Shown: one piece after another, positions 5,939 through 20,158 of the stretch | How the letters are laid out: each line of letters opens with the position of its first letter | How positions within the stretch are numbered: position 1 is the stretch's first letter | Assembly (NCBI GenBank): GCA_020628865.1 | Contig: JAHDEJ010000019.1 | Span: 1 to 64,000, forward strand | Reading direction: 5' to 3' | Source of the DNA: Acidimicrobiales bacterium | Lineage (GTDB): Bacteria; Actinomycetota; Acidimicrobiia; Acidimicrobiales; SHLQ01 | Length of the DNA: 64,000 nt | Position numbers and translations under genes: made by a program | Notes under the pieces: model-generated | Databases searched by the model: none | The model's input: the letters and a program-made list of their open reading frames with translations, nothing else | What the model was told of the DNA's origin: nothing

Positions 5939-6562
5939 ATGCATCCCACTGCACCCGACTTCAGCGGCCGCGAGGAAGCACTGATCCTTCCGCTTCGCGA
6001 TGACCACCTCGATGCGATCGGATTCGATCCCCGCTCGCACTATGCGGAGACGTTCTGGCTGCCGATTCTCGGTCCGAGCACGCTCTGGCTGCTGCGTTCC
6101 GTCGCCATGCGCTTCGACGTCGAGCCGGACGGATTCACGATGCATCTGGAGGAACAGTCGGCGTCCCTCGGCATCCGCTCGAACGGCGGCCGCAACAATG
6201 CCTTCCAACGGTCGCTGCATCGGCTGGTCGGCTTCAACATGGGTCGGACCGTCGACGAGCGCACGCTCGAGATCCGGCGGGTGATGCCGCCGCTGCACAC
6301 CGGCCAGGTCCGCCGGCTGTCCACGCGACTCCAACGGTTGCATCACGACGCCATGCAGCGCCGAGACGAACACCGCAAGGAGGATTCGCACCGCGCCAGC
6401 AAGGTCGCCTACACGTTGCTCCAACTGGGCGACAGCCCCGACCTCGTCGAACAGCAGCTCGTGAGTTGGGGGGTCGATCCGGGCCCGGCACACGATGCCG
6501 TCAACGAAGCGTGGGCGGCAAAGGCCCGATCCGATCGGGCGTCGTCGATCCCGGCGGCCTGA
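5939..6562 (+). CDS. Conserved actinobacterial hypothetical protein (intact copy)
   Basis: A 207-residue soluble protein, with no signal peptide or membrane segment visible. Its look (HYAETFWLPILGPSTLWLLR near residue 35, then SLGIRSNGGRNNAFQRSLHRL, a charged helix rich in Arg/His/Glu, and YTLLQLGDSPDLVEQQLVSWGVDP) is that of a helical protein family I associate with actinomycetes but cannot name. No catalytic motif is evident. The ATG has an AGGAG eight bases upstream. Everything from 6059 through the stop to 6578 occurs again, unchanged as far as I can compare, at 9615-10134, so this is the parent gene of the truncated copy. In the inferred ancestral order its 3' end faced the BtuF-like gene directly. 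Confidence 0.8.
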   Translation: MHPTAPDFSGREEALILPLRDDHLDAIGFDPRSHYAETFWLPILGPSTLWLLRSVAMRFDVEPDGFTMHLEEQSASLGIRSNGGRNNAFQRSLHRLVGFNMGRTVDERTLEIRRVMPPLHTGQVRRLSTRLQRLHHDAMQRRDEHRKEDSHRASKVAYTLLQLGDSPDLVEQQLVSWGVDPGPAHDAVNEAWAAKARSDRASSIPAA

Positions 6563-6578
6563 GCACTGCGGTCAGCGC
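6059..6578. repeat. 520-bp direct repeat, left copy
   Basis: Bases 6059-6578 and 9615-10134 correspond at a constant offset of 3556 with no difference seen in the stretches compared, and the encoded residues are identical throughout. The repeat covers codon 41 to the stop of the gene at 5939 plus 16 bases beyond it. The two copies diverge abruptly on the outer left (6058 versus 9614) and inner right (6579 versus 10135) sides. The geometry is that of a recent Campbell-type insertion: one complete gene at the left end, one 5'-truncated gene at the right end, foreign DNA between. Confidence 0.95.
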
Positions 6579-6700
6579 GAGCGCCATCCGTTTGCAACCC
6601 CCGCCAGTGTCAGAACTCCTATTCTCCTTTGGCCTCTGAAACGCGAAGGACGGTCCCCTGTCGAGCCCGAGGCAGAGACTCCGCCAAATCAGACTCGCTT

Positions 6701-7432
6701 CTAGTCCGAACTTAGGTCCCGCTTCTTGTTCTCAGGGAGCTGGTCGAAGAACGCAAGTCGCTTGTTGGGTCCCGCAATCGACCGCTCCACAATTTCGTTG
6801 AGGAACAAGAAGAGCACGTCCACGTCTTCACTATCGATCGTAAGGTCCAGCACCGCCGTGTGGGCTGCCTCGTTTCCGACGATCCGGACTACCTCCATTC
6901 CCTGCCAGAGATCACGAAGCTCGGTGCGTTCCGCTACGGACTCGACGCACTTGAAGAGCGTGTCCTTCGGAGGCTCGTTGAACGGATCGCCCTTCAGCAG
7001 CACCTCCAGCCCTGCCCGAAGCAGCGCTGCCGCTGCCGGAGGTGAAACGGGAGCGACGTGACGAGCTTGGTTGAAGATCGCCGCTACCTTCCTAGGCATC
7101 TCAGCGTGTGGTTTTGGCTCACGTAGCAGCACGGGATACATCTGAAGGGGCTCGACCACGTTCCATGTACACGTATGGTTCGTCTGGTCTTCCATGTCGG
7201 GCACACTGGAGTACGTACGCCGCAGGAGCGTCTCCCTGTTGCAACTACGACAGGAGATCGCCGACACCTCGTGCCACTCCAGCGACTTGTACTCGGTGAA
7301 CATCGAATCGAACTGCTCAGACCTGCCGACGAAGTTGTGGTCGTGGCGAGCCTCCAGCCCGCACCAACCGCACGTTGATGTTTCGAGTCGTTCAAAGGGT
7401 GGAGCTTGCTGCCCCAATCGTGACACTGCCAT
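6701..7432 (-). CDS. DUF4145 domain protein with N-terminal zinc ribbon
   Basis: A 243-residue protein. The N-terminal part holds two CxxC pairs (CGWC near residue 22 and CRSC near 61), likely a zinc ribbon. The middle and C-terminal part (EMPRKVAAIFNQARHVAP, PPAAAALLRAGLEVLLK, NEAAHTA) matches the pattern of DUF4145, a helical domain related to nucleic-acid-linked proteins and often found near restriction or defence genes. Its own biochemical activity is not established. ATG 7432 is chosen; a TTG at 7462 in the same frame would add ten residues. Neither has a clear ribosome binding site. It is the last gene of the island's minus-strand trio, and its codon use is less GC-biased than that of the flanking chromosome. 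Confidence 0.72.
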   Translation of the reverse strand: MAVSRLGQQAPPFERLETSTCGWCGLEARHDHNFVGRSEQFDSMFTEYKSLEWHEVSAISCRSCNRETLLRRTYSSVPDMEDQTNHTCTWNVVEPLQMYPVLLREPKPHAEMPRKVAAIFNQARHVAPVSPPAAAALLRAGLEVLLKGDPFNEPPKDTLFKCVESVAERTELRDLWQGMEVVRIVGNEAAHTAVLDLTIDSEDVDVLFLFLNEIVERSIAGPNKRLAFFDQLPENKKRDLSSD

Positions 7433-7521
7433 AAGACAGACCGTATACCGCAAGGGTGACAACGGTGCGGGGCGTGGTCGCCAGTGCCAGAAGTTGTTGA
7501 CGGCCGCCTAGCTCGCGGCTG

Positions 7522-8421
7522 CTAGGGAGTCTCCGACTCTCGACCGTATCGATAGCCGTGCTGGCGAGCTCTTTCGATCTGGTCCGCTTCGTGCTTGACC
7601 TCGGCCAGTGCTTGACGAGATTCCCGCCACAAGTGCCCCAACATCTTTGCTTGCTCCTCTGAGACTCTTCCGTTTCTCTTCTTGTGATCCCTCGCCCTCT
7701 TGATCATTGCACGAAGATCTTCCCGCTTAAGCTCGACCTTCTTCGATGCCTTCTCGACTCTCGCATCTAGCTCAGCGACCCGGGCAGTCGTCATCTTGTT
7801 CGCAACGGTCTCCCCCCGGAACCTGAGGTCGACGGCGGGGACGGCCGCCGGAACCAGCAGGACCAGATACCAGCATTCGGAATACGCGATGGCGGCGCAG
7901 AGTACGACGACGGCACTGACCAATGAGAGTTGCAGTCGGAATCTCATCTCCTGGTGAGATCGGACCCGGCCCTGATACTCGTCCCACAGGAACAGGCCGT
8001 AGTGGGTTGATGGCCTCTTGGCTGCGCCGATCCAGTCCCCCAGTCTTTGTGCAAGATCGTCCTCACGTCCAGCGCCTTCTTTACCCGTCCGCTCTTCGTA
8101 CACCCTTAGGTCTTCCAACGCAGTCTCGACCCAGAGATCCCACATCGGCCAGCCTGGGCGGCGTTCGATCGCCCTTAGGGCTCGGTCGATCACTATCTCG
8201 TTCGCCGCAGACCCGATCATTGCAGCCACGAAGATCAGCATTCCGATTTTGAAGTTGTCCCCGAGAAAGTCGAAGAGCTCTCCTAGCCGCTTCGTCAGTT
8301 CCGGTTCGACAACTGGCCCGGGCAGCCTCGGCCATACCAGCCACACGATCGCCAGCACGCCAAACCCGCTAAGCAGCGAGGATCGAAGTGCTCTTAGTCC
8401 GCCGGTCAGAGCGCTTAGCAC
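7522..8421 (-). CDS. Island membrane protein with C-terminal coiled coil
   Basis: A 299-residue protein not assigned to a family. Predicted membrane segments lie near residues 12-30 (LLSGFGVLAIVWLVWP), 57-76 (KIGMLIFVAAMIGSA) and 170-200 (SLVSAVVVLCAAIAYSECWYLVLLVPAAVPAV, probably a hairpin). A soluble loop of about 90 residues lies between the second and third. The last 95 residues are highly charged (TARVAELDARVEKASKKVELK onwards) and look like a cytoplasmic coiled coil. Start is a GTG at 8421. It lies 89 bases upstream of the DUF4145 gene on the same strand and may be co-transcribed with it. A membrane effector or sensor is possible but unproven. Confidence 0.7.
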   Translation of the reverse strand: MLSALTGGLRALRSSLLSGFGVLAIVWLVWPRLPGPVVEPELTKRLGELFDFLGDNFKIGMLIFVAAMIGSAANEIVIDRALRAIERRPGWPMWDLWVETALEDLRVYEERTGKEGAGREDDLAQRLGDWIGAAKRPSTHYGLFLWDEYQGRVRSHQEMRFRLQLSLVSAVVVLCAAIAYSECWYLVLLVPAAVPAVDLRFRGETVANKMTTARVAELDARVEKASKKVELKREDLRAMIKRARDHKKRNGRVSEEQAKMLGHLWRESRQALAEVKHEADQIERARQHGYRYGRESETP

Positions 8422-8641
8422 CTAGGCAACCACCGAGCGTTGAGTTGGTTGCGGAGTTCCTGACCCTCATATGGATGGGTGCCGGTGCGCGTGTGGCTGC
8501 CCTTCAACGTTTCAGCCACTAGATCCACAAGGGTCTCCGACCCCGGCTTCCCAGCCCGTTGCTTCGGATGGTCATACCCAGCCATGTCAGCACTTCTTCT
8601 CCCTCGGCGAACCTAACAGCGGCCACCGACACCGGCGCCAC

Positions 8642-8681
8642 CGCCTGGCTTGACCCATATCTGTGAGCCAAGCCAGGCGGC
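8642..8681 (-). terminator. Hairpin downstream of the 106-residue gene
   Basis: A perfect 12-base inverted repeat (CCGCCTGGCTTG at 8642-8653 and its complement at 8670-8681) with a 16-base loop begins 10 bases past the stop of the small gene on its strand. It lacks a U-run, so it is a terminator or RNA-stabilising hairpin only by position and strength. The rest of the 269-base gap up to 8421 shows no gene that I can support. Confidence 0.5.
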
Positions 8682-8690
8682 CGCGTTGTC

Positions 8691-9011
8691 CTACAGCTTC
8701 TTCGGGATCACCGGCCGAGGCGTACGCCCGGTTCGGAGCGTCCGAAGAGCACTGCTCAAGGGGCCGGCCAGGCTGTGCGGCAATTCGCCGGTGCCCAGGG
8801 CATCCTCGATAGACGTGCAAAGGACATCCAGCTCCACCTCGGGCCCGTCTTCGAGCTGTTCCATCGCCGGGTCCAGCGTGGAAGCAGTGTTCGGGTCGTA
8901 GGCGGTGTGGAGGTACATCGACGCGTTCTCCACCGCCGCACGAACTCGAAAATACTCACCCGAGTTGGCTAAAGTGATGTAGTGTTTACTTGACTTGAAA
9001 GAGTCCGGCAC
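8691..9011 (-). CDS. Small island protein of unknown function
   Basis: A 106-residue soluble acidic protein that I do not recognise. Its N-terminal half is helix-rich (KHYITLANSGEYFRVRAAVENASMYLHTAYD). The middle carries an acidic stretch (LEDGPEVELDVLCTSIEDAL), and the tail is basic (RTLRTGRTPRPVIPKKL). It is accepted as real because its GTG start has a perfect AGGAG nine bases upstream and a strong hairpin follows its stop. That AGGAG sits inside a palindrome (9021-9038), so translation may be regulated. It is the promoter-proximal gene of the island's minus-strand set, separated by 269 bases from the membrane-protein gene. Confidence 0.6.
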   Translation of the reverse strand: MPDSFKSSKHYITLANSGEYFRVRAAVENASMYLHTAYDPNTASTLDPAMEQLEDGPEVELDVLCTSIEDALGTGELPHSLAGPLSSALRTLRTGRTPRPVIPKKL

Positions 9012-9020
9012 TTGTGAGTG

Positions 9021-9059
9021 CTCCTAACTTGTTAGGAGACCCTGCGGGAACAGGGTCTC
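9021..9059 (-). promoter_or_regulatory. Leader with mutually exclusive hairpins hiding a ribosome binding site
   Basis: On the minus strand, directly before the GTG at 9011, the transcript reads two hairpins. One is GAGACCCTG TTCCCG CAGGGTCTC (9059-9036). The other is CTCCTAAC AA GTTAGGAG (9038-9021). They share bases 9036-9038, so their full forms exclude each other. The 3' arm of the second contains the AGGAG ribosome binding site. Closing the second hairpin would block translation, while a fully formed first hairpin would weaken it. This is the architecture of a translational switch; the ligand or trigger is unknown. Confidence 0.5.
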
Positions 9060-9077
9060 ATAATTGCTGTGGTTCGT

Positions 9078-9116
9078 GAACCCCCGTCAGCCGGTTTTCC
9101 CGGTAGGCGGGGGTTC
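9078..9116 (-). terminator. Strong GC hairpin upstream of the small-gene leader
   Basis: GAACCCCCG (9078-9086) pairs with CGGGGGTTC (9108-9116), and an inner CCGG/CCGG pair (9091-9094, 9100-9103) closes a short loop. It resembles the terminator hairpins seen between actinophage genes, but no U-run follows on either strand. It could instead be the first element of the structured leader. Confidence 0.4.
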
Positions 9117-9614
9117 GCTGCGTTTCTGACAACACAGAGTGACGCCAGATCGCCAAGGAACGATTCTACATCCTTGTAATTACAGCCTTCAAGGTTTGCG
9201 GTGACCCCATTGCGGCTGACCACTCTTCGCGTTTGCCCGCGCGCTCCATGGCGGCCCGCCCGCCGCCACTCGGCCGCCAATACGGGCACGGAGGGTGAGT
9301 ATTACAATTTCATTACGGTATCGAATGTGAAGTTCGTCACATCGATTTTTCACATAGTGTCCCCACCCCCACCCGAAAAACGCGCGAAAACGTACTTTTC
9401 GCCCACATTGGCATCAACTTCAACAGTTTGCGAGTAGTTGTTCAAGAACTACTGCGGTTGTCTCTCTCCCGGGCTCGCACGCCCCGCATGAAGGCTCGAC
9501 ACATCCAACACGTCGGCATCGCTGCCACATCACCTTGCGCCCCGCGCAGCGTCCCGGCCTCGTTCGTTCGGTCTTCAGCATGAGTTGTCATTACGCCAGA
9601 ATGCTAAGTTATGC

Positions 9615-10118
9615 CTGCCGATTCTCGGTCCGAGCACGCTCTGGCTGCTGCGTTCCGTCGCCATGCGCTTCGACGTCGAGCCGGACGGATTCACGATGCA
9701 TCTGGAGGAACAGTCGGCGTCCCTCGGCATCCGCTCGAACGGCGGCCGCAACAATGCCTTCCAACGGTCGCTGCATCGGCTGGTCGGCTTCAACATGGGT
9801 CGGACCGTCGACGAGCGCACGCTCGAGATCCGGCGGGTGATGCCGCCGCTGCACACCGGCCAGGTCCGCCGGCTGTCCACGCGACTCCAACGGTTGCATC
9901 ACGACGCCATGCAGCGCCGAGACGAACACCGCAAGGAGGATTCGCACCGCGCCAGCAAGGTCGCCTACACGTTGCTCCAACTGGGCGACAGCCCCGACCT
10001 CGTCGAACAGCAGCTCGTGAGTTGGGGGGTCGATCCGGGCCCGGCACACGATGCCGTCAACGAAGCGTGGGCGGCAAAGGCCCGATCCGATCGGGCGTCG
10101 TCGATCCCGGCGGCCTGA
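9615..10118 (+). pseudogene. 5'-truncated duplicate of the gene at 5939
   Basis: This copy holds codons 41 to 207 of the conserved hypothetical protein and lacks its first 40 codons, its promoter and its ribosome binding site. Foreign sequence is joined upstream. The open frame can be extended a few codons leftwards, but no good start signal precedes it. The absence of decay in 168 codons indicates a very recent duplication, gene conversion, or an artefact of assembly. Confidence 0.85.
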
Positions 10119-10134
10119 GCACTGCGGTCAGCGC
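9615..10134. repeat. 520-bp direct repeat, right copy
   Basis: Right-hand partner of 6059-6578. Its last 7 bases (10128-10134) also form the stop and final codon region of the BtuF-like gene, so this end still carries the original right-hand chromosomal context. The left boundary joins foreign DNA in the middle of the reading frame. Confidence 0.95.
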
Positions 10135-20013: not shown

Positions 20014-20058
20014 GTCTCAAGTATCGTCCACGCGGCCCCCAATGGTTAGTTCGACGCT

Positions 20059-20105
20059 CTCAGGTGCCTGGCACCTAAGGCCCCGTTAGGTGCCAGGCAC
20101 CTGAG
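20059..20105. repeat. Nested palindromic REP-like element
   Basis: A perfect 20-base inverted repeat (arms 20059-20078 and 20086-20105, 7-base spacer). Each arm contains the near-perfect palindrome AGGTGCC t GGCACCT, so it can form either one long hairpin or two small ones. It sits in the 145-base gap between the Ku start and the divergent membrane-protein gene, and AAAA follows on the plus strand. It resembles dispersed REP-type elements, but only one occurrence is seen here. Confidence 0.75.
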
Positions 20106-20158
20106 AAAATTCGTTGGGGTTGGTGGTGTTGTGGCCCCGTTCGGGCGATGAGCGAGCG

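Follow-up and report, generated by a model that had tools for sequence, protein, structure and literature searches.

A small inserted island in an Acidimicrobiales genome carries, upstream of its first gene, DNA homologous to the promoter region of the genome's own nrdA (ribonucleotide reductase alpha) gene, and we give even chances to the explanation that a captured nrdA-type promoter drives this orphan gene via a mostly static, structured 5′ UTR. The homology to the nrdAB promoter is new, and a hairpin (H4) that encloses the start codon was missing from the first-pass annotation of this DNA. All coordinates refer to the window, the 64,000-nt stretch that was analysed, which has a G+C content of 66%.

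A predicted nrdA-type promoter upstream of the leader

When the island DNA was searched against 19 genomes of the family, the one match besides the island itself was upstream of the genome's own nrdA. The homologous region (9167–9345, minus strand) aligns without gaps to G000:C35:30418–30596 (72% identity over 179 nt, E 7.1e-19), a site directly upstream of an 836-aa NrdA gene and then NrdB, both named by profile. The upstream core is present in seven of the ten other genomes of the genus, found by search in G307, G308 and G310–G313 and in G304 with a spacer longer by one base. G305 and G306 matched a different part of the query alone, with no core in the stretches retrieved, and the nrdA upstream search in G309 gave no match.

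Aligned with seven nrdA upstream regions, the island retains TTGA..TGTAATTACA..TGTA, GTAAT-N6-GTAAT and TGTG..CACA. The palindrome TGTAATTACA (9175–9184) lies in the promoter spacer and is conserved at nrdA in the genus. GTAAT-N6-GTAAT is a direct repeat (9301–9316, minus strand) with related blocks at nrdA in the genus by alignment, and may be MtrA-like by its motif. The third element belongs to an inverted repeat, ATGTGA-N6-TCACAT (9325–9342), that is partly conserved at nrdA and that may be CRP/FNR-like by consensus.

The predicted promoter (9163–9192, minus strand) has a −35 box TTGAAG (9192–9187), an 18-nt spacer and a −10 box TAGAAT (9168–9163), and coincides in position with the conserved nrdA core. 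Taken alone the promoter hit is at chance level, with one sigma-70-like match found in 6500–9700 and 0.8 expected by chance. The exact core occurs at five places in four of 297 genomes of the order, all four within the genus (five members sampled), and the island is the only one of these places away from nrdA. Six of the seven exact matches in genome_contigs are upstream of nrdA in Acidimicrobiales MAGs and the seventh is in an Ignavibacteria contig without nrdA; there are none in viral_contigs. By homology and by a core at fixed spacing, the predicted promoter is a member of the nrdA-type class of the genus.

The homology with nrdA upstream DNA ends at the −10 box (9167). The island has TAGAAT where nrdA has TAACCT, a poor sigma-70 match, and a second palindrome at nrdA, TTACAAGCTTGTAA, is changed to TTACAAGGATGTAG and lost in the island. 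Since the homology stops at the −10 box, an nrdA-type promoter of the lineage has apparently become fused to a leader and a gene that are unrelated. Transcription would start near 9156, which would place all of the hairpins described below inside the transcript. One published account describes NrdR boxes as palindromes upstream of and overlapping the start sites of ribonucleotide reductase genes (PMC9110341). The best match to a 16-mer NrdR-box consensus, which was not taken from a paper, has five mismatches in the island region and three at nrdA.

Folding of the nrdA leaders in the genus is unremarkable (z −1.2 to 0.2 at seven loci in seven genomes, two of the loci being near-identical and an eighth, L055, falling outside the script's pattern), and the hairpin structure of the island leader is therefore not simply inherited with the promoter. 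These leaders were rejected as a source of the hairpins on their z values and on the end of the homology at 9167.

The orphan gene and its island

The orphan ORF (106 aa; 8691–9011, minus strand) begins with a GTG codon (9011–9009) and is followed directly on its 3′ side by a 12-bp perfect hairpin without a U-tract (8641–8680, minus strand). Its codon score is 0.043 in frame, whereas the remaining five frames score −0.27 to −0.81. This makes it a likely gene, and the in-frame score resembles those of the two larger genes of the island (0.000 and −0.092). The score is lower than those of most host training genes, which were chosen for high GC3 (5th percentile 0.20), and is inside the shadow-ORF range (median −0.32, 95th percentile 0.20), so that the ORF is probably a gene with some doubt left.

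The 106-aa product has no match in Pfam, PADLOC, NCBIfam or PHROGs, no homologue was found in phages or plasmids, and a search of 19 family genomes returned only the ORF itself. Scans of genome_contigs and viral_contigs, which reach close relatives only, yielded 295 and 37 pattern stretches, none of them confirmed. Three weak matches besides the ORF itself in 296 genomes of the class (E 0.0046–0.0079 per genome, two with internal stops) were judged to be chance. Single-sequence structure prediction gives four helices (pLDDT 75.8, with five models spanning 39.8–75.8), and the predicted fold has no match at E ≤ 0.001 in the PDB or among viral models.

The island is 3.0 kb long (6579–9607) and is flanked by plus-strand direct repeats of the 3′ part of a host gene, a left copy at 6052–6578 and a right copy at 9608–10134 that is identical to it at 525 of 527 positions. 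Both differences fall within the first 7 bases, and 9615–10134 (520 nt) is without difference. G309, the closest relative that the flanking gene retrieved (97% protein identity), lacks the island: this gene is a single copy with an open frame there, and no island DNA was found in that genome, which is 67% complete. A 527-nt repeat with 520 nt identical suggests that the event was very recent, or else that assembly produced it. The island flanks look as if a circle with host DNA had inserted by a single crossover, or again like an assembly effect; the assembly is a draft of 113 contigs, in which a 520-nt perfect repeat could conceal an error.

A PD-T7-4-like (DUF4145/HEPN-like) protein is encoded at 6701–7462 (minus strand). 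It matches the PADLOC profile PDLC04109 (E 4.4e-25; residues 22–249 of 253, profile positions 7–202 of 211) and PHROG 1305 'DNA binding protein' (E 9.3e-17), and its score against Pfam DUF4145, 21.6 bits, is below the cut-off of 23.1. DUF4145 is assigned to the HEPN superfamily, with defence links, in one source (PMC3710099), and PD-T7-4 is among the defence systems listed in another (PMC11811056). Because of this protein the island is a candidate for phage defence. One other PD-T7-4-like protein is present in 292 genomes of the class (in G265), and the 106-aa ORF has no tblastn match in the 3.7 kb around its gene. A membrane-like protein of 299 aa (7522–8421, minus strand) has a paralogue in contig C106 of the same genome (30% identity over residues 2–180). 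The paralogue is located beside a 166-aa ORF, a tyrosine recombinase and a MobF relaxase (L051 9242–14437, G000:C106), possibly an integrative element. From its profile matches the island is predicted to be a small defence or mobile-element cargo island.

A remnant of island mobility, in which the leader hairpins served replication, transfer or recombination and play no role in expression of the ORF, would fit both the island's character as a recent insertion and the location of the membrane-protein paralogue beside a recombinase and a relaxase. However, recombinase, Rep and relaxase profiles have no match among the island's three larger ORFs, and the hairpins are situated 491 nt inside the island end, between the promoter and the Shine-Dalgarno sequence (SD); we consider such a remnant very improbable.

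Hairpins of the leader

The first-pass annotation had placed three hairpins in series before the GTG at 9011 on the minus strand, and these are present as H1, H2 and H3. H1 (9116–9078) has a perfect 9-bp stem and an inner CCGG/CCGG stem, H2 (9059–9036) has a perfect 9-bp stem and a 6-nt loop, and H3 (9038–9021) is a perfect 8-base inverted repeat with a 2-nt centre (8-2-8), all on the minus strand. The description of H3 as a perfect 8-base palindrome containing AGGAG also holds, the SD (9025–9021) being within its 3′ arm, as does the overlap of three bases between the 5′ arm of H3 and the 9-bp H2 (9036–9038, by sequence inspection and hairpin census). As RNA, H3 can form at most seven of its eight pairs, since a loop needs more than 2 nt. 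The fourth hairpin, H4 (9021–9008, minus strand), has a 5-bp stem (9021–9017/9012–9008) with a 4-nt loop and encloses the GTG start, which is paired with a probability of ~0.98 in the folding model (142-nt context).

The leader (9009–9120) has a fold z of −5.48 on the minus strand and −5.76 on the plus strand, and none of 200 shuffles is equally good in either case; its inverted repeats thus fold on either strand. A z as low is found in 2 of 148 host leaders of equal length. This host set derives from 17 stretches of the own genome and the window (396,635 nt) and contains leaders preceded by 110 nt or more of free sequence. An SD-like word is present in 110 of the 148; the genes were called by a crude script and some starts are possibly wrong. 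Three perfect hairpins (stem of at least 8, loop of 2–25) within 115 nt occur in the leader and at one other place in the 396,635 nt, and one dinucleotide shuffle of that sequence contains none, while single perfect hairpins of this kind are common (54 in the 64-kb window).

The second such cluster in these 397 kb is at L075 3451–3557 (G000:C106), and one of its stems is 19 bp long. The longest perfect inverted repeat in the window census is 21 bp with a 7-nt loop (20058–20106) and ends a few bases 5′ of a plus-strand start called at ~20114. The leader at that start has a z of −6.6 and costs 28 kcal/mol to open, which makes it a stronger candidate for a hidden start than the leader of the orphan ORF.

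The plus strand folds as well as the minus strand, with no RNA-specific asymmetry, and this together with the 8-2-8 geometry of H3 is what would be seen if the perfect inverted repeats, H3 above all, served as DNA-level operators for a dimeric regulator, with incidental folding of the RNA. H3 would, however, be ~118 nt downstream of the transcription start, and within viral_contigs its palindrome recurs in just two stretches, in one case around an SD-like AGGAG that precedes an ATG by 5 nt, which is a leader position; operators seem quite improbable. That viral contig (L102 1209–1226) carries the identical CTCCTAAC-NN-GTTAGGAG palindrome, the frame of its ATG is open over the 19 codons examined, and it represents an SD-in-hairpin leader in unrelated DNA.

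Rfam 15 covariance models give no matches across the whole window at gathering thresholds. A DNA search of 296 genomes of the class, in which at most two candidates per genome were scored, gave short matches (17–32 nt in 21 of the 296 genomes besides the leader itself, E up to 0.1) and revealed no leader homologue. A single-sequence covariance model of the leader, run on 297 genomes of the order with strict filters and scoring of at most 12 candidates per genome, has a best other match of E 0.003 per genome, and the eight other genomes at E ≤ 0.1 per genome are not above chance expectation. One plus-strand match of this model (9076–9123) is H1 seen from the other strand.

Transcription attenuation or termination at H1 or H2 is conceivable insofar as H1 is very stable and would begin ~40 nt after the transcription start. 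The terminators would have to be U-poor, since by eye no U-tract follows H1, H2 or H3 on the minus strand, and a terminator consensus scan of both strands is silent at all three; this makes attenuation most improbable.

Access to the Shine-Dalgarno sequence and start codon

In the folding model the SD is paired in H3, with core pairs at a probability of ~0.6. Opening it costs 4.3 kcal/mol, against a host median of 3.95, and at least as much in 50 of 110 host genes; opening the whole stretch from SD to start costs 7.2 kcal/mol (host median 9.1; 71 of 110 as high or higher). A fixed window from −17 to +6 costs 7.7 kcal/mol (host median 13.1; 130 of 148 as high or higher). Taken singly, the start codon costs 5.1 kcal/mol to open (median 2.4; 17 of 148 as high or higher), a value in the upper part of the host range. 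Since the SD and SD-to-start costs are ordinary, the ribosome site taken whole is hidden no more than is usual in this genome, and the earlier proposal that the leader hides it is not supported, although the start codon alone is costly. Overlapping hairpins at an SD that are judged by eye need a host background; by the folding model this site is at least as open as that of an average gene in this genome.

The competition between H2 and H3 that had also been proposed is real, given the bases in common, and is nearly neutral. The energies are −49.2 kcal/mol with H2 full and H3 off, −49.5 with H2 full and H3 trimmed, −48.6 with both trimmed and −45.5 with H3 full. The stems share 3 nt, yet the trimmed forms of H2 and H3 that coexist are equally stable. 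With the H2-full/H3-off and both-trimmed states within ~1 kcal/mol of each other, no bistable switch is visible. An RNA thermometer was considered and rejected: the H3 core probability is 0.28 at 10°C, 0.60 at 37°C and 0.46 at 55°C, and the SD-to-start cost drops smoothly from 11.3 to 5.1 kcal/mol with temperature.

Two possible upstream peptides, both speculative, are encoded in the leader on the minus strand. The first (uORF1, 9058–9135) has a GTG start and 25 codons, and its TGA stop overlaps the ATG of the second (uORF2, MRPCSRRVS, 9032–9061), a 9-codon frame with its TAA stop in the 5′ arm of H3. Neither has the SD that was looked for at both as a mark of a leader-peptide attenuator. In a ribosome-block simulation, blocking 9067–9037 closes H3 (core probability 1.0, up from 0.60) and makes the SD costlier to open (6.8 kcal/mol, up from 4.2), and blocking 9058–9030 abolishes H3 (0.60 to 0). 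A ribosome on uORF2 would give this pattern of H3 closing and then opening.

These features can be assembled into a translational switch with H2 as anti-sequestor and H3 as sequestor: a protein, a ligand or a ribosome on uORF2 would break H2, H3 would zip and turn the SD off, and a ribosome further on would free the SD. The three shared bases, both outcomes of the block simulation, the uORF2 stop in the H3 arm with its ATG overlapping the uORF1 stop, and the pairing of the GTG in H4 are consistent with this arrangement. Such a switch is nevertheless unlikely, as the states are near-isoenergetic without any factor, the uORFs are without an SD, and neither leader homologues nor an Rfam match were found. 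What survives of the first-pass reading as a translational switch or attenuator is a strongly folded leader with a costly start codon; special hiding of the ribosome binding site, states of distinct energy, a terminator and an Rfam match do not accompany it. A regulated switch in the leader is possible, unsupported.

A proposed static leader under a captured promoter

In the favoured explanation, a static 5′ UTR under a captured promoter, the hairpins would constitute the 5′ UTR of the island's first gene, transcribed from ~9156 by a promoter region that its homology derives from the nrdA promoter of the same genus. The RNA would fold as H1, H2 and a compact H3/H4 block, and because H4 encloses the GTG and H3 pairs the SD at ~60%, translation would proceed at a moderate constitutive level. 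H1 and H2 would mainly represent a stable 5′ part of the RNA. Control of the gene would be chiefly transcriptional, in step with ribonucleotide reductase, and not by a ligand switch in the leader.

Counting for a static UTR are the promoter homology to the own nrdA, the occurrence of the exact core mainly at nrdA, the strong fold, the ordinary SD and SD-to-start costs and the near-equal states. Counting against it are the rarity of so strong a fold and a start codon that is hard to open, together with nrdA leaders that are not unusually folded, a promoter match at chance level and an nrdA −10 box that is a poor sigma-70 match. The tandem perfect inverted repeats also look maintained, for which a merely static UTR has no need.

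A further reading, which we hold to be distinctly unlikely, combines the captured nrdAB promoter with a regulated leader in a defence island. The signal that induces ribonucleotide reductase, a shortage of DNA building blocks as occurs in phage replication, would also switch on the island's first gene, and the folded leader would be a second, translational gate opened by a factor.

The leader alone would be one more structured 5′ UTR, with switching possible, and the promoter capture is the part that would matter. If true, it would tie a possible defence island to a promoter for dNTP supply and offer a direct idea of how a defence island might follow a signal of its host. The parts of the literature consulted contain no capture of a ribonucleotide reductase promoter by a defence island, which is no proof of absence.

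Comparison with known systems

Structured 5′ UTRs in which the SD or the start codon is held in a hairpin form a general class. The orphan ORF leader resembles them in having the SD in H3, the GTG in H4 and a modest initiation cost, and differs in the two further large hairpins upstream. In erm-type translational attenuators with a leader peptide, hairpins overlap and a short ORF ends in the sequestor arm. Both features recur here, whereas the uORF has no SD, the states are near-isoenergetic and no family members were found. The likeness to PD-T7-4 (PDLC04109) belongs to the island protein at 6701–7462, which matches over residues 22–249 of 253, and not to the gene with the leader, and the defence function is predicted from this profile.

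With the nrdAB promoter of the genus, the island shares the TTGA..TGTAATTACA..TGTA core and the upstream GTAAT-N6-GTAAT and TGTG..CACA elements, in a gapless alignment with the copy in its own genome. It departs from that promoter in the −10 box (TAGAAT for TAACCT), in the change of TTACAAGCTTGTAA to TTACAAGGATGTAG and in the unrelated leader that follows.
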